Assembly: GCF_031624495.1 (NCBI RefSeq)
Contig: NZ_JAMQOP010000004.1
Coordinates: 1-64,000, forward strand
Source: Halogeometricum sp. S1BR25-6
GTDB lineage: Archaea > Halobacteriota > Halobacteria > Halobacteriales > Haloferacaceae
Length of the DNA: 64,000 nt
Direction of reading: 5' to 3'
The notes below the pieces were generated by a model that did not search any database, was not told where the DNA came from, and saw only the letters and a list, made by a program, of their open reading frames with translations. The translations under genes were made by a program, and so were the position numbers. Below are positions 44,012 through 55,461 of this stretch, piece by piece (position 1 is the stretch's first letter; each line of letters begins with the position of its first letter).

Positions 44012-44452
44012 CTATCCGCTCGTAGCCGTTTCGTTCGTGTCGACTACCTCGATAGCGTTGACCAAGGGATTGTCGACCGCCCCCTGCTCGAAGGTCACGG
44101 TGACGGTACCGTCGCCGTCGTCGGTCGCGGTGAACGTCTTCGTCGTCCCAGTAGTGTGTCCGACGTCCGCGACCGGGTCGTAGTTCGAGAGTACCTGTGA
44201 CCCTTCGACAGAGACGTTGAACTCTCGCTCTTTCGGCTCACTCGTCCCCGGGTAGGAGTTACCCACGAAGAGGCGGACGTCGACCTGCTGGCCGACATCC
44301 ACCGGGAACTCCCACGTCATCGTGCCGTAGCGCTCGCAGTCGAACACCGCGTCGGGGGTGGTGGAGGGGACCGTGCCGTCCCGGTACAGGACATCACTTC
44401 TCCCGTTCCCGATCCACATCCGGTCGTCCGCGTGGTGGCGCGCGTCCGGCAA
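44012..44452 (-). pseudogene. Malectin-like carbohydrate-binding domain, 5'-truncated remnant
   Basis: The frame encodes the second half of a malectin-type beta-sandwich: TMTWEFPVDVGQQVDVRLF, EREFNVSVEG and NPLVNAIEVVD. The first strands, a signal peptide and any upstream domains are missing, and the frame is closed by a stop at 44471-44473. The only available start is a TTG at 44452. In haloarchaea such domains usually occur in large secreted proteins. It is best read as a leftover of a larger gene, though a short standalone protein cannot be excluded. Confidence 0.55.
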
Positions 44453-46067: not shown

Positions 46068-46105
46068 GTCATGTGTATACGAAACAGCCACTAAAAACCA
46101 ACCCC

Positions 46106-46119
46106 CGTCCATGGAAGGC
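46106..46119. promoter_or_regulatory. Imperfect CCATGG-centred palindrome before the HTH-10 gene
   Basis: TCCATGGA forms a perfect 8-nt core, flanked by CC and GG with one mismatched pair. Its centre is about 17 bp upstream of the regulator's TATA-like element, the same geometry as the stronger sites at 46162 and 47359. It may mediate autoregulation. Confidence 0.4.
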
Positions 46120-46161
46120 CGCCGTCGAGCGGGCGCCTCCGGAAGCCGGTCGGTTCGCACC

Positions 46162-46173
46162 CTCCCATGGGAG
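46162..46173. promoter_or_regulatory. Perfect palindrome CTCCCATGGGAG before the racemase gene
   Basis: This 12-nt perfect palindrome is centred about 18 bp upstream of a TATA-like TGATACC and about 49 nt before the ATG. The same 12-mer occurs inside the 16-nt palindrome at 47359-47374 before the symporter. It is a probable activator-binding site. Confidence 0.65.
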
Positions 46174-46216
46174 CGGACCGAGTGATACCGCTCGGACGGC
46201 TCTCTCGTCGGTACCG

Positions 46217-47209
46217 ATGGAATCAGACCCCTTCGCCGAGTGCGTCGACACCCACACCGCGGGCGAACCGACTCGGATACTCACTGGCGGGTTCGACGCG
46301 AGCGAACTGGACCGACGGAGCGCCGAAGCCAGTCGCGATTCGTTCGCCGAGCGGTACGACTGGCTCCGACGACTCTTGGTCCGCGAACCCCGCGGGCACG
46401 AGCACATGTTCGGGGCGATTCCCGTGTTCGAGGTGGACGACGCCGCGGACTTCGGTCTGTTCTTCTTCGACAACGGCGGGTATCTCGACATGTGCGGCCA
46501 CGGGACCATCGGCGTCGTCACGGCGCTGATAGAGACGGGGCGACTACCCGAGCGGTCGTCGTACGAGATAGCGACCCCCGCGGGAACGGTGACGGCGGAG
46601 CCGACGGTCGAGGACGGTCGGGTCCGGTCGGTCGAGATAGACAACATCCCCTCCTACATGACCGGCGGGACGAGGGTCGACCTTCCCGGAACAGGACCGG
46701 TCGACGTCGACCTCGTCTACTCCGGCAACGTCGTCGCACTCGTGGACGCAGCCCAGTTCGACTTCGCGCTCGAAGAATCGAATCTCGACCGGATTCGAGA
46801 GTGCGGTCGCACGTTGAAGCGACGACTCAACGCCAACGACGCGGCGCCGACCGACGACTCGCTTCCCGCACCGGTCTCGGTGGTGGAGTTCTACGAGCGC
46901 CGTTCCGACGTCGACCGGAATGTGGTCGTCTTCGGGAACGGCTCGATCGACCGGTCCCCCTGCGGCACGGGGACGTGCGCGAAGATGACGCTACTCTACG
47001 AGGAGGGCGAACTCGCCGTCGGAACGCCCTACCGGTACCAGAGCGTCCTCGGTCGGGAATTCGTCGGGACCGTTCGAGACGTAGAGGACGGGGAGGACGG
47101 CGCGGTCGTCCACCCGGTCGTGAGGGGGTCGGCGTACGTCACCGGGACACACCAGTTCGTCCGCGACCCGGAGGACGACCTCGGCAGTTTCCACCTCGGG
47201 TCCGGATAA
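46217..47209 (+). CDS. Proline racemase family protein (proline racemase/hydroxyproline epimerase)
   Basis: The 330-residue protein carries both catalytic cysteines of the family: FFDNGGYLDMCGHGTIGVV and RSPCGTGTCAKM. Two Cys indicate a racemase or epimerase rather than the Thr-containing dehydratase (trans-3-hydroxyproline type). VDTHTAGEPTRILTGG is the usual N-terminal motif. The start is ATG 46217 (MESDPFAECVDTH). Conversion of proline or trans-4-hydroxyproline is expected; sequence alone does not separate them. A nearby sodium symporter with the same upstream palindrome may import the substrate. Confidence 0.9.
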   Translation: MESDPFAECVDTHTAGEPTRILTGGFDASELDRRSAEASRDSFAERYDWLRRLLVREPRGHEHMFGAIPVFEVDDAADFGLFFFDNGGYLDMCGHGTIGVVTALIETGRLPERSSYEIATPAGTVTAEPTVEDGRVRSVEIDNIPSYMTGGTRVDLPGTGPVDVDLVYSGNVVALVDAAQFDFALEESNLDRIRECGRTLKRRLNANDAAPTDDSLPAPVSVVEFYERRSDVDRNVVVFGNGSIDRSPCGTGTCAKMTLLYEEGELAVGTPYRYQSVLGREFVGTVRDVEDGEDGAVVHPVVRGSAYVTGTHQFVRDPEDDLGSFHLGSG

Positions 47210-47358
47210 TCCGGGATGCGTATCAACCGTCCGCGGTACATTGTCTCCGCGACCGTCTTTTGACGGGGAGATGCGCCGGAGTCCGCCGACTACAGCCTCT
47301 CCGAGAGGGAGGCGACGAATACGTTGTCCGTGGAGATAGTGTCTGGAACCTGTGAGTT

Positions 47359-47374
47359 CCCTCCCATGGGAGGG
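47359..47374. promoter_or_regulatory. Perfect 16-nt palindrome CCCTCCCATGGGAGGG before the symporter gene
   Basis: All eight base pairs of the two arms match. Its centre lies about 16 bp upstream of a TATA-like GATATAAC, which is followed by the ATG at 47405. The inner 12 nt equal the site before the racemase gene. The position directly upstream of TATA fits an activator site. Confidence 0.68.
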
Positions 47375-47404
47375 CGCTGATATAACCGCCGTCTTCAGAA
47401 TAGC

Positions 47405-48883
47405 ATGGGTAGAGATATCATGGCAGACTCAGAGGCGAGAACGGCGAGAGAGGAGTGGGGGAGTCGGTTCGGCTTCCTCATGGCGATGCTCGGGGCGATG
47501 GTGGGGGCCGGGAACATCTGGCGGATGCCGTTCACCACGGGACAGAACGGCGGTGGGGCGTTCCTCATCGCTTACATCCTCCTGTTGTACGTCATCGCGG
47601 TCCCCGGTCTCATGGCCGAGACGATGGTGGGCCGGTACACGAACCACGGGGTCATCGGGGCGTTCAAACGGCTCACCAAGAGCAAGCGTGCACGGGGACT
47701 CGGTCTCGTCGTCCTCGTCGTCAACATCGCGCTGATGTCGTACTACGCGCCGATCATCGGGTGGGCGCTCTACTACGCGGGGCACTCGCTGCTCGCGACG
47801 TTCACCCAACCCGGTTTCCAACCGCAGGCGTTCTGGGACGGCTTCATCTCCAACCCGGCGCTGGTCATCGGGATGCACACGGTGACCATGGCCGGACTCG
47901 CCGGCGTTCTCGTCTTCGGCATCCGCCGCGGCATCGAGCGGGTGGTGAAGTGGATGATTCCGCTGCTCGTCGTCGCCCTGCTCGCGGTGGCGGTGCGCGG
48001 CGTCACCCTTCCCGGTGGGATGGACGGACTGGCGTTCGTGTTCACGCCCGACTGGACGTACCTCACCCGCGGGAGCACCTGGATCGCGGCGCTCAGTCAG
48101 GCGCTGTTCTCGACGGGGCTGGGATGGGGTATCGCGCTCACCTACGGGAGCTACCTCGGTCGGTACGACGACGTTCCGCTCGGCGGGGGTCTGTTCACCG
48201 CCATCGGGAATACGAGTATCGGGCTCCTCGCGGTGTTCGCGACGTTCCCCGTCGTCTTCGCGTTCGGACTCGAACCGAGTGCAGGGTCCAATCTGCTGTT
48301 CATCTCGCTGGCTCGCGTGTTCCCTGAACTGCTCGGCGGTGCGCTGTGGGCCGTCGTGTTCTTCGTCTCCTTCTTCTTCGCGACGTTCACCTCCGGCCTC
48401 GGCATCACCGAAGTCGGCGTGACCTCCGTCTCCGAAGAGACGCGTCTCTCCCGCACCGGGTCGGTGCTCGCGGTCTGCGGGGCCATCTGGTTGTTCGGGC
48501 TTCCGAGCGCCTACTCGTCGTCGTTCCTCGGTCAGATGGACTTCATCATCGGGAGTTTCGGACTCCCGCTGGCGACGCTATCCATCATCGCGCTCGTCGC
48601 GTGGAAGTTCGGTCCGGAGCGCGCTCGCGTCATCGACCTCAATCGCAACGCCGGAATCTACATCGGTCAGTGGTGGAATCCGGTCGTCAAATACGTTATC
48701 CCCATCGTGATGGTATTCATCGTCGGTTACGGCGTCGTCGGGAGCATCGGGACGGAGAACCAGACGCTGATGATACTGGGCGTCGCGCTCATGGTCGCTC
48801 TCGTCGCCGTGAGCATGGCCGTGATGGGCGTCACGGACGGGATGGGCGATTCTCCGGACCCCGCGTCCAAGGGGGGTGACTGA
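47405..48883 (+). CDS. Sodium-dependent transporter, neurotransmitter:sodium symporter (SNF) family
   Basis: The 492-residue protein has about 11-12 membrane segments. It begins with the NSS TM1 motif AMVGAGNIWRMPF, which forms part of the sodium and substrate sites, and continues with GGGAFLIAYILLLYVIAVPG. Members import amino acids or related amines with sodium. The shared palindrome and adjacency suggest uptake of the racemase substrate. ATG 47405 is about 22 nt from the TATA-like element; ATG 47420 is an alternative. The next small gene begins 1 nt after its stop. Confidence 0.93.
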   Translation: MGRDIMADSEARTAREEWGSRFGFLMAMLGAMVGAGNIWRMPFTTGQNGGGAFLIAYILLLYVIAVPGLMAETMVGRYTNHGVIGAFKRLTKSKRARGLGLVVLVVNIALMSYYAPIIGWALYYAGHSLLATFTQPGFQPQAFWDGFISNPALVIGMHTVTMAGLAGVLVFGIRRGIERVVKWMIPLLVVALLAVAVRGVTLPGGMDGLAFVFTPDWTYLTRGSTWIAALSQALFSTGLGWGIALTYGSYLGRYDDVPLGGGLFTAIGNTSIGLLAVFATFPVVFAFGLEPSAGSNLLFISLARVFPELLGGALWAVVFFVSFFFATFTSGLGITEVGVTSVSEETRLSRTGSVLAVCGAIWLFGLPSAYSSSFLGQMDFIIGSFGLPLATLSIIALVAWKFGPERARVIDLNRNAGIYIGQWWNPVVKYVIPIVMVFIVGYGVVGSIGTENQTLMILGVALMVALVAVSMAVMGVTDGMGDSPDPASKGGD

Positions 48884-48884
48884 G

Positions 48885-49214
48885 ATGGCGCTCTCGACTC
48901 TCGCTTGGGTGACGATGCTCCTCTCGTTGCTCGTGCTCCCCGGCGTCGCGAGCGTCGCCCTCGTCAGGTCGCTTCGGACCGAAGAGCGGAAACTCGAACT
49001 GCTCAGAGAACAGGGGAGCGTCGACAGCTACTCCCCGCGCGCGCTGGCGGACCTCCGAGAGTGGATTCGGACGCACCCGAACGACCCCTACACGACCGAC
49101 GCACGAGAACGGCACAACGAGTGCGTACGGACGCTACGAGAGATCGAAGAACCGTACTACGACTGGTCCGCAGAGCAGATAGCGGAACTGGAGACCATCG
49201 AACGAGAGAGCTAG
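48885..49214 (+). CDS. Small membrane-anchored hypothetical protein, possible symporter subunit
   Basis: This 109-residue protein has one N-terminal membrane segment (WVTMLLSLLVLPGVASVALV). A soluble charged tail follows with RALADLREWIRTHPNDPY and ERHNECVRTLREIEEPYYDW. It starts 1 nt after the symporter stop; a GTG at 48876 would overlap it. Some NSS symporters have small partner subunits, so an accessory role is possible. The reading frame just after the stop (49213-49377) also codes in a haloarchaeal style, so the end may be frameshifted. Confidence 0.65.
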   Translation: MALSTLAWVTMLLSLLVLPGVASVALVRSLRTEERKLELLREQGSVDSYSPRALADLREWIRTHPNDPYTTDARERHNECVRTLREIEEPYYDWSAEQIAELETIERES

Positions 49215-50133: not shown

Positions 50134-50567
50134 CGCGCGGGTCCGGCCGAGCGGACGGTGACGACGAGCGATCGGGCCGAACCGCCGGATCCAGAAGTAC
50201 TACTATATTTCTCAAACCCTTCCCTCCTCGCCCAGGTCAGAAAACGCATCGCCTCAATAAGAATCTACAATACCCATAATAGAGATATAAACGGATAGTA
50301 TAGAAACATTAGATCAGATAAATAACGAACGAGAGGTAGGGGGACTTGTGGTCGTAGCATATGCTCACATGGTTAACAGCGTAGTTGGCGAAAGCCGCTC
50401 GAACCGTCTCCATCCGTCGTCGGTCGTCCTCGAATATCGCTGAAGATGGCGACCGAATCGCACGCGAAAATTTCCGAACGTATGGGCTACCTATGACATA
50501 TTAGTGACCGTATCAACCGGAAACGATACTAATATCTGACGAACGTTCGACACTGTGACATCTGAGC
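50134..50567. other. AT-rich non-coding gap
   Basis: No gene was found. The stretch from 50205 to 50330 is unusually AT-rich for this window. A perfect 10-nt palindrome CGAACGTTCG lies at 50540-50549, about 40 bp upstream of the TATA-like GGTTATAC (50584-50591) of the next gene. Confidence 0.5.
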
Positions 50568-50580
50568 GTCCATGGTCGGG
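50568..50580. promoter_or_regulatory. CCATGG-centred element before the second Liv operon
   Basis: GTCCATGGTCGGG has its CCATGG centre about 15 bp upstream of the TATA-like TTATAC. The downstream half resembles the site near 46106 read on the minus strand (CCATGGACGGGG). Only the hexamer core is symmetrical, so this may be chance. Confidence 0.25.
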
Positions 50581-50620: not shown

Positions 50621-51988
50621 ATGGTGAGCGACAACGGCACGGCGACGCGGAGAGCAGTTCTCAAAGGTGTGGGCGCGGGCGGTCTCGTCGGGGTGGCGGG
50701 CTGTCTCGGCGTCGAAGGCGGCGACGAGGGTGGCGACGGCGGAACCGAGGGGAACGGCGGCGGGAGCACCGGAACGGACGGCGGCACGGCGGGTGGCGGA
50801 AGTTCGCCGGACAGCATCGTGTTCGGGCAACCCGCCGCGCAGACGGGCCAGTGGGACTTCCTGCAACCCGGCGTCTCGCAGGCGACCGACGCCGCGCTTC
50901 AGAACATCAACGACGCTGGGGGTCCGCTGGGGACCGAAGTCGAACTCGTGCGCCGCGACACCGGCGTCAACCCGCAGGAGGCCCGCACCGTCGTCACGCA
51001 ACTGATAGAGAACGACGGCGCGTCGGCGATTCTGGGGCTGTTCTCCAGCGAGATAAACCCGCTGTGGGACTTCCTGCAGGAGCAGCGGACGCCCGTCGTC
51101 ACCCCGTGGCCGGGGTCGACGTTCCTCGACACCCGCGGCGGCGACAAGGGGACGCCCGAGAACCTCGACGACGACGAGTGGGTGTGGCGGACCGTCGTCG
51201 GCGACACCGTCCACACGGCCGGGAACGCGAAGCGGACGCTCGACGAAGGCTTCGAGACCATCGGCGTCATCAACGGCAACACCGAAGGGGAGCGGAGTTA
51301 CGTCGAGGGATTCCTCGCGCCGTACGAGGCCGAGGGCGGCAGCGTCGCACAGCGAGTGGAGGTCGGTCTCGGGGAGTCCAGCTACCAGTCCGCGCTCGAA
51401 CGCCTGTTCGGCGCCGACTTCGACGCGTTCCTCGTCAGCCTCCCGCAGGAGTCGGCCATCACGATGCTGAGCGACTGGGCCGACGGCGGCTACGGCGGCC
51501 AACCCGTCCTCTCGGACACGCTGGGCACGCAGGCGGTCATCGACCAGGTGGGCGACGCATTGAACGGCGCGTGGGCGGCCTCGCCCGGACAGTCGGGACC
51601 GAACTACGACACCTTCGAGCAGGCGTTTCAGAACGCGGGCGACGCGGAGGTCAACGCGTGGTCGCCGCCGGCCTGGGACGCGATGCACGTCGTCGCTCTC
51701 GCCGTCGAACGCGCCGGCGAGGCGACGCCGGAGGCCATCGAGCGGAATCTCGGACCGGTCAGCGGTGGCGAGGGGATGACGGTATCGACGTTCGCGGAAG
51801 GGAAGGAGGCCTTGGCGAACGGGGAGGAGGTCAACTTCGAGGGCGCGGCGACCCCGACGAACTTCACGCAGCACGGCAACGTCTTCGGTTCGGTGACCAT
51901 CAGCGTCGCCGAGAACGGCGAGTTCACCGAGGCGGAGGTCATCCCGGCCGAGGAGGTTCGCGGGTTCGTCGAGGAGGGTGAGTACTGA
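50621..51988 (+). CDS. livK: ABC transporter substrate-binding lipoprotein (Liv type)
   Basis: This is the receptor of a second Liv-type importer, with 455 residues. A Tat motif (TRRAVLKG) and lipobox (VAGC) precede a Gly/Asp/Glu-rich linker. The binding fold begins SIVFGQPAAQTGQWDFLQPG and includes ALQNINDAGGPLGTEVELV. Start is ATG 50621, about 32 nt after a TATA-like TTATAC. It heads a five-gene operon with permeases and ATPases in the order K-H-M-G-F on one strand. The substrate may be an amino acid, amide or carboxylate. Confidence 0.92.
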   Translation: MVSDNGTATRRAVLKGVGAGGLVGVAGCLGVEGGDEGGDGGTEGNGGGSTGTDGGTAGGGSSPDSIVFGQPAAQTGQWDFLQPGVSQATDAALQNINDAGGPLGTEVELVRRDTGVNPQEARTVVTQLIENDGASAILGLFSSEINPLWDFLQEQRTPVVTPWPGSTFLDTRGGDKGTPENLDDDEWVWRTVVGDTVHTAGNAKRTLDEGFETIGVINGNTEGERSYVEGFLAPYEAEGGSVAQRVEVGLGESSYQSALERLFGADFDAFLVSLPQESAITMLSDWADGGYGGQPVLSDTLGTQAVIDQVGDALNGAWAASPGQSGPNYDTFEQAFQNAGDAEVNAWSPPAWDAMHVVALAVERAGEATPEAIERNLGPVSGGEGMTVSTFAEGKEALANGEEVNFEGAATPTNFTQHGNVFGSVTISVAENGEFTEAEVIPAEEVRGFVEEGEY

Positions 51989-51991
51989 GCG

Positions 51992-52906
51992 ATGGGACTC
52001 CTCCAGAACGTCATCTTCGGCCTCGTCACGGGGTCGTACATCGCTATCGCCGCTATCGGGTTCACGCTCATCTACGGCATCGTGAACATGATCAACTTCG
52101 CGTACGGCGAGTACCTCACTATCGGCGCGTTCGTCGGGTTGCTCACCGCGGTGACGCTCCCCTTGCCGCTCCCCGTCGCGGTGTTGGTGGCGATGGTCGG
52201 CGGCGGCGTCGCCAGTCTCGTGCTCGCGCGACTGTTCTTCACGCCCATCAACCACACCGGTCCGGTGCCGATGCTTCTCACCTCTATCGGGTTGGGTATC
52301 GCGCTCCGAAACCTCATCCGGCTCGCGGCCGGACGGAACGCCCGCTACTTCGACACGGAGACAGCGACGTTTCGACTCTCCGGCGTCCCCGACGTCCCGG
52401 TGGGGCCGTTCGACCTGCTCGGCGACTTCTTCGTCACCTCCGAGCACCTCGTCGTCGTCGGCTGTGCGGTGGCCGTCTTTTTCCTCCTCCACGGTCTCCT
52501 GACCCGGACTGACGTGGGCATCGCCATGCGGGCGATGGGCGACGACGAGGACCTCGCGCGCGTCCGCGGCGTCGACACGCAGTGGATTCGCGACAGCGTC
52601 TGGGTGCTGGCCGGCGTCCTCGCCGGACTGGCGGGCGTGCTCATCGCGATTCAGACGAACGTCAGCGCCGGGACGGGCTACAGCCACATCCTGCAGATTC
52701 TCGCGGCCGCCATCCTCGGCGGCGCCGGGAGCCCCTACGGCGCCATCGCGGGGTCGTACATCATCGGACTGGTGCTGTCGCTCTCGACGGCCTTCCTCCC
52801 CGGCGGGATGACCGAACTCTCCTCGGCGATGGCGTTTCTCATCCTCATCGTCGTCCTCCTCGTGAAGCCGAGCGGACTCGCCGCGCAGGAGGTGCGCGAG
52901 GCGTGA
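51992..52906 (+). CDS. livH: Liv-type ABC transporter permease (LivH-like)
   Basis: This permease has 304 residues and about eight membrane segments, with the LivH opening GLVTGSYIAIAAIGFTLIYG and INFAYGEYLTIGAF. The ATPase-contact loop AMGDDEDLARVRGVD is followed by LAAAILGGAGSPYGAIAGSY. It begins 3 nt after the livK stop and overlaps the next permease as GTGA. Confidence 0.93.
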   Translation: MGLLQNVIFGLVTGSYIAIAAIGFTLIYGIVNMINFAYGEYLTIGAFVGLLTAVTLPLPLPVAVLVAMVGGGVASLVLARLFFTPINHTGPVPMLLTSIGLGIALRNLIRLAAGRNARYFDTETATFRLSGVPDVPVGPFDLLGDFFVTSEHLVVVGCAVAVFFLLHGLLTRTDVGIAMRAMGDDEDLARVRGVDTQWIRDSVWVLAGVLAGLAGVLIAIQTNVSAGTGYSHILQILAAAILGGAGSPYGAIAGSYIIGLVLSLSTAFLPGGMTELSSAMAFLILIVVLLVKPSGLAAQEVREA

Positions 52907-53952
52907 GCGTCGCCGACAGACTCCCGCTCGGGGACGCCGCGGGGAACGGTGCGCTGCTCCTCGGCGGCCTCTGCGTGCTCCTCGCGGCGGTGTTCGCGTT
53001 GACGCCGCTCGTCGTCTCGCTTCCGGGGTCGCTGTACGTGTTCTTCGAGGTGGGTATCCTCTTCGCCCTCTACGGCGTATTGGTGCTCGGACTGGACCTC
53101 CAGTACGGCCACACCGGCCTCGTGAACTTCGGGCACGTCGCGTTCTTCGCCGTCGGCGCGTACGCCGTCGCGATGCTGTCCGCGCGGGACAGTTTCGCCG
53201 GCATCAGCCTCGGTCTTCCGTGGCCCGTCGCCCTCATCGGCGGTATCGTCGCCGCGGCTCTGCTCGGCGCCGCCGTCGGCGCCACCTCGATTCGGCTCCG
53301 CGACGACTTCCTCGCCGTCGCCACGCTGGCGACCGCCGAAATCGTCCACTCGCTGTTCGTCAGCTTCGAGGGCATCTTCGGCGGCAACGTCGGTATCGGG
53401 AGCATCCCCCAACCCGTCTCGGACCTCGCGGGCGACGCCGACACCGCGATGCTGGCGACCATCCTCCTGTTCGGGGGCGTGATGCTCCTCACCCTCGCGG
53501 CGGTGACGCGACTGACCGAGGCGCCCTACGGACGCGTCCTGCGGGCGATTCGGGCGGACGAACTCGTCACCCGGTCGGTCGGCAAGTCGGTGATCACCTA
53601 CAAGATGCAGTCGTTCGTGTACGGGGCCGCCCTCGCGGGGCTGGCCGGGGGGCTGTTCGCCCTCTACACGGGCGCGGTCGCGCCGGGCTACTTCACCATC
53701 CAGGTGACGGTGACGGTGTGGATCGGAATGCTGCTCGGCGGCGCGGCGAACCACCGCGGGGTGCTGGCCGGCCTCGCCGTCATCATGGGGCTGCGACTGC
53801 TCTCGCGGTTCGCACTCGGCGTGACGCCGATATCCGCCGACGCGTTCGCGTCGGTCCGCCTCGTCGTCGTCGGCCTGGTACTGGTCGCCGTCATCCGCTA
53901 CCGACCGGCGGGCATCTGGGGCGACGCCGAGGAGTTGGGGGTGGACACGTGA
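52903..53952 (+). CDS. livM: Liv-type ABC transporter permease (LivM-like)
   Basis: This permease of 349 residues starts with GTG at 52903 inside the livH stop. It shows ALYGVLVLGLDLQYGHTGLV, GHVAFFAVGAYAVAML, and the cytoplasmic loop RAIRADELVTRSVGKSV. The C-terminus YRPAGIWGDAEELG is typical of LivM. It overlaps livG by GTGA. Confidence 0.93.
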   Translation: MSVADRLPLGDAAGNGALLLGGLCVLLAAVFALTPLVVSLPGSLYVFFEVGILFALYGVLVLGLDLQYGHTGLVNFGHVAFFAVGAYAVAMLSARDSFAGISLGLPWPVALIGGIVAAALLGAAVGATSIRLRDDFLAVATLATAEIVHSLFVSFEGIFGGNVGIGSIPQPVSDLAGDADTAMLATILLFGGVMLLTLAAVTRLTEAPYGRVLRAIRADELVTRSVGKSVITYKMQSFVYGAALAGLAGGLFALYTGAVAPGYFTIQVTVTVWIGMLLGGAANHRGVLAGLAVIMGLRLLSRFALGVTPISADAFASVRLVVVGLVLVAVIRYRPAGIWGDAEELGVDT

Positions 53953-54704
53953 GCCTCCTCGCCGTCGAGAACCTCGTGAAGACGTTCGGCGGTCTCCGCG
54001 CGCTGGACGGCCTCTCCGTCTCGGTCGACCGCGGCGAACTGGTCGGCGTGATGGGACCGAACGGCGCCGGCAAGTCCACGTTCTTCAACTGCGTCAGCGG
54101 CGTCGTGAGTCCCGACGGGGGTCGCGTCCTGCTCGACGGCGCGGACGTGACCGGCGACTCGCCGGAGTCGCTGGCCCGAACCGGCATGGTCCGGACGTTC
54201 CAGCACACGAGAGAGTTAGAGACGATGACCGTCCGCGACAACGTGCGTCTGGCGGCGTCGGACCAACCCGGCGAGCGCACGCTCCCCGCGCTCTTTCGAA
54301 CGGAGTCGATGCGCGACCGAGAGCAGGAGGTCCGCGAGCGCGCCGACGGACTCGTCGAGACGTTCGAACTCGACCACCTCGCCGACGAGTACAGCGGGAG
54401 CCTCTCCGGCGGGCAGCGCAAACTGCTCGAACTCGCCCGCGTGCTGATGTTGGACCCGAATCTGCTCCTCTTGGACGAACCGTTCGCGGGCGTCAATCCG
54501 ACGCTCACGCGGGAGATAGCCGGGCGCATCCGCGCGCTCAACGACGAGGGAATGACCGTCGTCGTCATCGAGCACGAACTGGAGACGCTGACCGAACTGG
54601 TCGACCGACTGGTCGTCCTCCAGCAGGGGTCGCTGCTCGTCGAGGGCGACCCGGAGACCGTCCTGTCGGACGAACGCGTCATCGAGGCCTACTTGGGAGA
54701 ATGA
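53949..54704 (+). CDS. livG: Liv-type ABC transporter ATP-binding protein (LivG-like)
   Basis: This 251-residue ATPase starts with GTG at 53949. It has Walker A GPNGAGKSTFFNCVSG, the LivG element RTGMVRTFQHTRELETM, a signature SGSLSGGQRKLLELA, Walker B LLLLDEPFAGVNPTL and switch His VVVIEHELETL. Its stop overlaps the ATG of a 19-codon mini-ORF that ends exactly in the livF start. Confidence 0.93.
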   Translation: MSLLAVENLVKTFGGLRALDGLSVSVDRGELVGVMGPNGAGKSTFFNCVSGVVSPDGGRVLLDGADVTGDSPESLARTGMVRTFQHTRELETMTVRDNVRLAASDQPGERTLPALFRTESMRDREQEVRERADGLVETFELDHLADEYSGSLSGGQRKLLELARVLMLDPNLLLLDEPFAGVNPTLTREIAGRIRALNDEGMTVVVIEHELETLTELVDRLVVLQQGSLLVEGDPETVLSDERVIEAYLGE

Positions 54705-54760
54705 CCGTGATACGAACACTACACCACGGCGAACGCGGACACTCGGAGGCGAGCGCGTGA
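54701..54760 (+). CDS. 19-codon mini-ORF bridging livG and livF
   Basis: The ATG at 54701 overlaps the livG stop (ATGA). The TGA at 54758-54760 overlaps the livF GTG start (GTGA). The peptide begins MTVIRTLHHGERG. The frame differs from both neighbours. It may carry ribosomes across the gap for translational coupling rather than make a functional peptide. It may also be chance. Confidence 0.3.
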   Translation: MTVIRTLHHGERGHSEASA

Positions 54761-55461
54761 GCCTCCTGAACGTCTCCGCGCTGGACGCCGGCTACGGCGA
54801 CCTGCGGGTGCTCTCGAACGTCGACCTGCACGTCGACCCCGGCGAGTACGTCGCCATCGTCGGCCCGAACGGCGCGGGTAAGTCGACGGCGATGAAGGCC
54901 GTCTTCGGCCTCGCCGACAGGCAGGGCGGCGCCATCACCTTCGACGGGACGGACATCACGGACCACCCGCCGGAGTCCGTCATCCGCGAGGGGCTGAGCT
55001 ACGTTCCGCAGGTGGACAACGTGTTCCCCTCGCTGACCGTCGCGGAGAACCTGCGGCTCGGGGCGTACATTCTCGACGAGCAACCCGAGGCGCGCCGCGA
55101 GGCCGTCTTCGAGCGCTTCCCCGTCCTCCGGGACAAACTCGACGCCAACGCGGGGACGCTCTCGGGCGGCCAACAGCAGATGCTCGCGATGGGGTGTGCG
55201 CTGATGCTCGACCCGGACCTGCTCCTGTTGGACGAACCGTCCGCCGGCCTCTCGCCGGACCTCGTCACCGAGATGTTCGACCGCGTCGACGCCGTCAACG
55301 AGGCCGGAACCGCCGTCCTCATGGTCGAACAGAACGCCAAGGAGGCGCTCAGACGCTGCGACCGCGGCTACGTCCTCGCCAACGGCGAGAACCGCTACGA
55401 GGGGTCGGGCGACGACTTACTCGACGACGAGGAGGTGCGCCGGCAGTTCCTCGGCGGGTGA
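54757..55461 (+). CDS. livF: Liv-type ABC transporter ATP-binding protein (LivF-like)
   Basis: This ATPase has 234 residues with Walker A GPNGAGKSTAMKAV, signature GTLSGGQQQMLAMG, Walker B LLLLDEPSAGLSPDLV and LMVEQNAKEAL at the switch region. It starts with GTG 54757. It is the last gene of the second Liv operon and converges on the CNNM-type pseudogene. Confidence 0.93.
   Translation: MSLLNVSALDAGYGDLRVLSNVDLHVDPGEYVAIVGPNGAGKSTAMKAVFGLADRQGGAITFDGTDITDHPPESVIREGLSYVPQVDNVFPSLTVAENLRLGAYILDEQPEARREAVFERFPVLRDKLDANAGTLSGGQQQMLAMGCALMLDPDLLLLDEPSAGLSPDLVTEMFDRVDAVNEAGTAVLMVEQNAKEALRRCDRGYVLANGENRYEGSGDDLLDDEEVRRQFLGG

Follow-up and report, generated by a model that had tools for sequence, protein, structure and literature searches.

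A candidate operator for proline use assigned to one clade of HTH_10 regulators in Halogeometricum and other haloarchaea

We identified a palindromic promoter element in Halogeometricum sp. S1BR25-6 that is very likely the operator of a clade of short, Bat-like HTH_10 regulators for proline use, from which the HTH_10 protein encoded beside it would activate four units. The window protein (the window being the whole 64,000-nucleotide stretch of DNA analysed) would bind, presumably as a dimer, the 14-bp element CCKHCCATGGDMGG about 7 bp upstream of TATA and beside the BRE. Its targets would be the HTH_10 gene itself, a proline racemase gene, an NSS symporter gene with the gene for its small partner, and the genes of a Liv-type ABC transporter. 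The same operator would be read by a paralogue in a put locus, where the gene order is P5C dehydrogenase-like, HTH_10, proline dehydrogenase. Because the module and the put locus share this operator, a single code in the cell would cover proline uptake, the interconversion of D- and L-proline, and the oxidation of L-proline to glutamate. From the comparison of sequences we infer that the HTH_10 protein physically binds the operator; proline as the inducing signal and the substrates of the transporters are likewise putative assignments. HTH_10 proteins are abundant in haloarchaea, and we know of few besides Bat that have known targets. What is new here is the assignment, predicted from comparative evidence, of an operator and a pathway to one HTH_10 regulator clade, for which clade, operator, promoter geometry and pathway can be named together.

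An earlier reading made from the sequence of the window only had reported a 12-nt palindrome, CTCCCATGGGAG, before the racemase and symporter genes. Both copies are present (46162-46173 and 47361-47372), where dinucleotide shuffles give an expectation of 0.00, and they are the only two in the whole 4.5-Mb genome, against 0 for the reversed control. The 16-nt perfect palindrome CCCTCCCATGGGAGGG reported at 47359-47374 was also confirmed, and the weaker site proposed before the regulator gene is real, with an exact TCCATGGA at 46108-46115 inside the 14-mer listed as O1 in the table. That reading missed that the element proper is a 14-mer of slight degeneracy, each half tolerating variation at two positions. 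A locus comparison across relatives yielded the looser pattern CCNNCCATGGNNGG, which was then refined to CCKHCCATGGDMGG. The looser pattern has three copies genome-wide (46105, 47360 and contig C1:1369530), and 14-mers with one mismatch precede the racemase gene (46161) and the Liv-type ABC operon (50566), the latter being a fourth window site that had not been reported. Both of these mismatched sites have counterparts in the congener G040. The concern that the element might be scattered through coding DNA was not borne out, as the two exact 12-mers and three copies of CCNNCCATGGNNGG in 4.5 Mb all lie in regulator, transport or put promoters. Other sites with one mismatch in the same genome were, among those examined, mostly intragenic or without promoter context, and most of them are attributed to chance because the control gave 11 against 19 in that search.

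Table. Candidate operators and genes of the proposed regulon in the window
Feature	Position	Strand	Sequence	Context and evidence
Operator O1	46105..46118		CCGTCCATGGAAGG	HTH_10 gene's own promoter; TATA-like TTTTTA at 46097-46092 (minus strand), 7 bp off
Operator O2	46161..46174		CCTCCCATGGGAGC, one mismatch	Racemase promoter; weak TATA-like GATA at 46184-46187; orthologous site in G040 at L083:7621
Operator O3	47360..47373		CCTCCCATGGGAGG	Inside the 16-nt palindrome 47359-47374; NSS promoter; TATAA at 47381-47385
Operator O4	50566..50579		GCGTCCATGGTCGG, one mismatch	Liv-type ABC operon promoter; TTATA about 6-7 bp downstream; orthologous site in G040 CCGACCATGGACGG (L083:3627)
HTH_10 (PF04967) regulator, 243 aa	45336..46067	-		N-terminal domain without assigned fold; Pfam E 4.4e-18
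Proline racemase-type enzyme, 330 aa	46217..47209	+		Pfam PF05544, E 8e-81; closest PDB match AsProR
NSS-family (SNF, PF00209) sodium symporter	47420..48883	+		Pfam; tblastn and promoter comparison
Small protein, 107-112 aa	48876..49214	+		Directly 3' of NSS in the conserved module; no Pfam family
ABC substrate-binding protein (Peripla_BP_6)	50621..51988	+		First gene of the Liv-type operon; Pfam
Liv-type permease (BPD_transp_2)	51992..52906	+		Pfam
Liv-type permease (BPD_transp_2)	52903..53952	+		Pfam
ABC ATPase with BCA_ABC_TP_C	53949..54704	+		Pfam
ABC ATPase	54757..55461	+		Pfam

The regulator carries its HTH_10 domain at the C-terminus (residues 186-237), with 65.3 bits against a Pfam cut-off of 23.1. 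A Pfam search found no GAF or PAS match in the protein, which does not qualify as a Bat-type sensor, and a single-sequence AlphaFold model (pLDDT 36) was too poor for use. The symporter belongs to the NSS/SNF family, with two stretches of PF00209 above the cut-off (8.8e-58); its start at 47420 (ATGGCAGAC) is preferred over 47405 because it is kept in the congeners G039 and G040. The protein encoded immediately downstream may be a small subunit of the symporter. The Liv-type operon (50621-55461) lies beyond a gap after the small-protein gene. Between 49370 and 50160 there is a membrane-protein reading frame that appears split over frames (MPEETPRVPLW... followed by ...ISGDLAWLVNPW), which suggests a frameshift or decay, and a short ORF with a malectin-like domain (PF11721) is found near the module at 44012-44419. 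On contig C1, the site at 1369530 lies in the divergent promoter between a P5CDH-like aldehyde dehydrogenase gene (PF00171) and the HTH_10 paralogue, whose other neighbor is a proline dehydrogenase gene (PF01619).

The conservation search covered 170 genomes of the family. A close orthologue of the HTH_10 protein (52-91% identical) is accompanied nearby by the racemase and by an NSS protein of high similarity in nearly all genomes that have it. The module occurs in 14 genomes including that of the window, most commonly in the order NSS, 107-aa protein, racemase, with the HTH_10 gene beside them; in the genus of the window, the racemase gene is not part of the NSS operon, and a separate copy of the site precedes it. 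The small protein encoded at 48876-49214 has a hydrophobic N-terminus, and its counterparts follow NSS in nearly all of the module carriers examined. A contig scan with the regulator gave one remote locus, and the named relatives were drawn from plasmids, those of Haloferax gibbonsii, Haloterrigena sp. KLK7, Natrarchaeobaculum, Natronorubrum aibiense and Halorussus vallis. The clusters of N. aibiense and H. vallis also contain aldehyde dehydrogenase and proline dehydrogenase genes, and in Natrinema and Halopiger the neighbors of the regulator include proline dehydrogenase and a symporter annotated as sodium/proline. In relatives, the element is kept upstream of orthologous HTH_10 and NSS genes and of put genes, an outcome that favors the earlier reading. 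Degenerate sites with two to three mismatches occur in the module carriers G006 and Haloterrigena KLK7. No operator was found before the HTH_10 gene of H. vallis, which follows the racemase gene, or in the module of Natrinema pallidum. In another genome (G033, L112:6154), a perfect CCTCCCATGGGAGG is located at the 3' end of an HTH_10 gene whose divergent product is 39% identical.

Across the 170 genomes the element tracks this HTH_10 clade, as the sequence-only reading had anticipated. In the training genomes, 47 of 51 refined sites are within 6 kb of a gene of the HTH_10 clade, where about 0.6% would be expected by chance, as compared with 0 of 22 non-refined sites. A hand count in 30 other genomes placed 43 of 53 sites within this distance of an HTH_10-clade gene and 10 away from any listed one, and the reversed control pattern gave nine sites in total. 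Some of the sites tested had gone into building the refined consensus, which these held-out genomes offset only in part. Genomes with the regulator clade average 2.7 CCNNCCATGGNNGG sites and those without it 0.9 (p 5e-16, a descriptive value because related genomes are not independent), and the same trend was seen within one genus. Among 69 classified promoters from many haloarchaea, the targets are P5CDH-like genes (26), HTH_10 genes (24), genes for Liv-type substrate-binding proteins (15), NSS genes (3) and a PRODH gene (1), every one of them a proline-use or regulator gene. The operator precedes P5CDH or PRODH genes both at C1:1369530 and in the ALDH promoters, and one PRODH promoter, of relatives.

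This comparative evidence supports the proposal of an HTH_10 regulon comprising regulator, racemase and symporter, and assigns the putative operator to the HTH_10 clade. The module is not self-contained as had been suggested, since the operator is shared by the window's Liv-type ABC operon and by PRODH and P5CDH genes elsewhere; with a paralogous HTH_10 protein sharing it as well, the regulon would be wider than claimed. The sharing also raises the question of which protein acts in the window. In a tree of 54 HTH_10 proteins, the operator accompanies 40 of 45 members of two clades, the window type and the put type, and none of the remaining nine. Both clades have the identical operator and the same HTH residues, and the congener G039 has an NSS gene with a perfect operator and HTH_10 proteins of the paralogue clades only, without a close orthologue of the window HTH_10 protein or racemase. 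The sites in the window could therefore be read mainly by the put-locus paralogue, or by both regulators, and we give this a substantial but minority chance, given that nearly all module carriers retain the adjacent HTH_10 gene together with racemase and NSS, and that this gene has an operator of its own.

The palindromes had been placed 16-18 bp upstream of TATA-like elements, which holds from center to center; from edge to edge, the gap between 14-mer and AT-rich box is shorter, 6-9 bp. In the window it is 7 bp for the HTH_10 gene, 9 bp for the racemase, 7 bp for NSS and 6-7 bp for the ABC operon, the racemase site combining its one mismatch with a poor TATA. In the 69 classified promoters, an AT-rich hexamer mostly occurs 4-8 bp past the motif, AT content is highest 7-10 bp after it, and the start codon is usually 35-45 bp beyond it. 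In the Natrialbaceae the operator precedes HTH_10 and ALDH genes, mostly 36-38 nt from the start codon. The operator thus lies upstream of TATA/BRE at a fixed spacing, as archaeal activator sites do. Local autoregulated regulators are frequently repressors, and the adjacent HTH_10 gene has an operator in its own promoter, so that HTH_10 proteins could instead repress these genes until proline relieves the repression. We think this unlikely. The steady gap of 5-8 bp upstream of TATA is the position of activator sites for TrmB and GvpE, and Bat, the studied HTH_10 protein, is an activator that acts through an upstream element (PMC3184054). The position of a TrmB site relative to TATA sets its effect, with upstream sites activating and overlapping or downstream sites repressing (PMC10817205), although TrmB differs in family, motif and targets (sugar metabolism). 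The UAS for GvpE in gas vesicle genes is similarly a two-part activator element at a fixed distance, adjoining BRE/TATA (PMC4390858); GvpE itself is a leucine-zipper-like protein with another DNA sequence. The earlier suggestion that the position just upstream of TATA is that of an archaeal activator agrees with both systems, and by this analogy activation by the HTH_10 regulators appears likelier than repression.

The racemase has the catalytic pair of its family, Cys93 in MCGHG and Cys249 in SPCGTGT. It also has Phe65 at ligand site 1, Phe239 at site 5 and no histidine in the site-4 region, as in proline racemases according to the residue criteria of Watanabe et al. 2015 (PMC4364671). Its score of 259.8 bits is below the NCBIfam equivalog cut-off of 556 for NF010576, the best of those models, so specificity was judged from residues and context. 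The Cys-Cys pair is present in all module racemases, as is Phe in both discriminating positions, whereas most family homologues outside the module have Tyr and His, or Cys-Thr; an exception, L067, has proline-type residues and no adjacent HTH_10 gene. Since these residues fit the criteria of that study, proline is favored as substrate, and of the imino-acid use first proposed, proline is retained and hydroxyproline becomes less likely. The family does include 4-hydroxyproline epimerases, and an enzyme from Haloarcula japonica used both substrates in a preliminary assay (PMC4364671). A module for hydroxyproline instead of proline nevertheless seems rather improbable, because its racemases lack the HypE histidine and the PRODH/P5CDH loci bear the same operator. 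Proline is accordingly the more likely substrate on the predicted active-site residues.

Although the core CCATGG is itself a palindrome of six bases, and palindromes this short occur often, it is very improbable that the sites are chance palindromes, NcoI-like restriction or methylation sites, RNA hairpins or sites of an unrelated global factor, given three copies of CCNNCCATGGNNGG in 4.5 Mb, their steady position before TATA, their linkage to one HTH_10 clade and the absence of any Rfam element found near them.

The proposed system resembles and differs from several known ones. Bat, the bacterioopsin activator of Halobacterium, is likewise an HTH_10 protein with a C-terminal helix-turn-helix DNA-binding domain. 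The GAF and PAS domains of Bat, whose signals are light and oxygen, contrast with the unassigned N-terminal domain of the 243-aa window protein, which would act on proline-use genes through a putative palindrome with a CCATGG core. In Haloferax volcanii, growth on alanine induced ProDH and P5CDH jointly, and neither a regulator nor a signal was assigned to them (PMC6801745). The HVO_1189-HVO_1191 locus has the same ALDH-PRODH pair as the operator-bearing put locus, and from synteny in related genomes we infer that the gene between HVO_1189 and HVO_1191 encodes an HTH_10 paralogue. That study proposed an AT-rich, Lrp-linked motif for a gene cluster on pHV4 (PMC6801745), whereas our proposal is a GC-rich palindrome read by an HTH_10 paralogue. 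A literature search that largely lacked subscription journals found no publication on HVO_1190 and none on a proline regulator in haloarchaea. The H. volcanii proline genes of that 2019 study would thereby gain a testable candidate regulator and an exact site in a tractable genus. The Haloarcula japonica racemase HjProR and its relatives are also Cys-Cys enzymes, and haloarchaeal racemases are often clustered with a PutA-type L-ProDH; the available part of that work describes no regulator or operator (PMC4364671), both of which are proposed here.

Residues 211-212 of the HTH_10 proteins, where a helix of the HTH domain begins, are Thr-Arg in both operator clades and Ala plus a varied residue in the others. 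For the closest of these others within the genus, clade C, a palindrome of another sequence, CCTCTCATGAGAGG, is present in single copy ahead of a gene for an amino-acid permease, and this is probably the operator of the third HTH_10 paralogue. Tentatively, HTH_10 proteins may share a code of CATG-centered palindromes upstream of TATA, in which Thr211-Arg212 or Ala211-x helps to choose CCATGG or TCATGA; this possible specificity switch is drawn from one genus. If it is true, residues of the HTH may set operator choice and other HTH_10 regulons would be predictable from sequence. The palindrome CCTCTCATGAGAGG lies directly 3' of the third paralogue's gene, at G000 contig C2:663050-663063 (L106:8051-8064), and also occurs in G039, G040 and G041, once per genome in four of five congeners.
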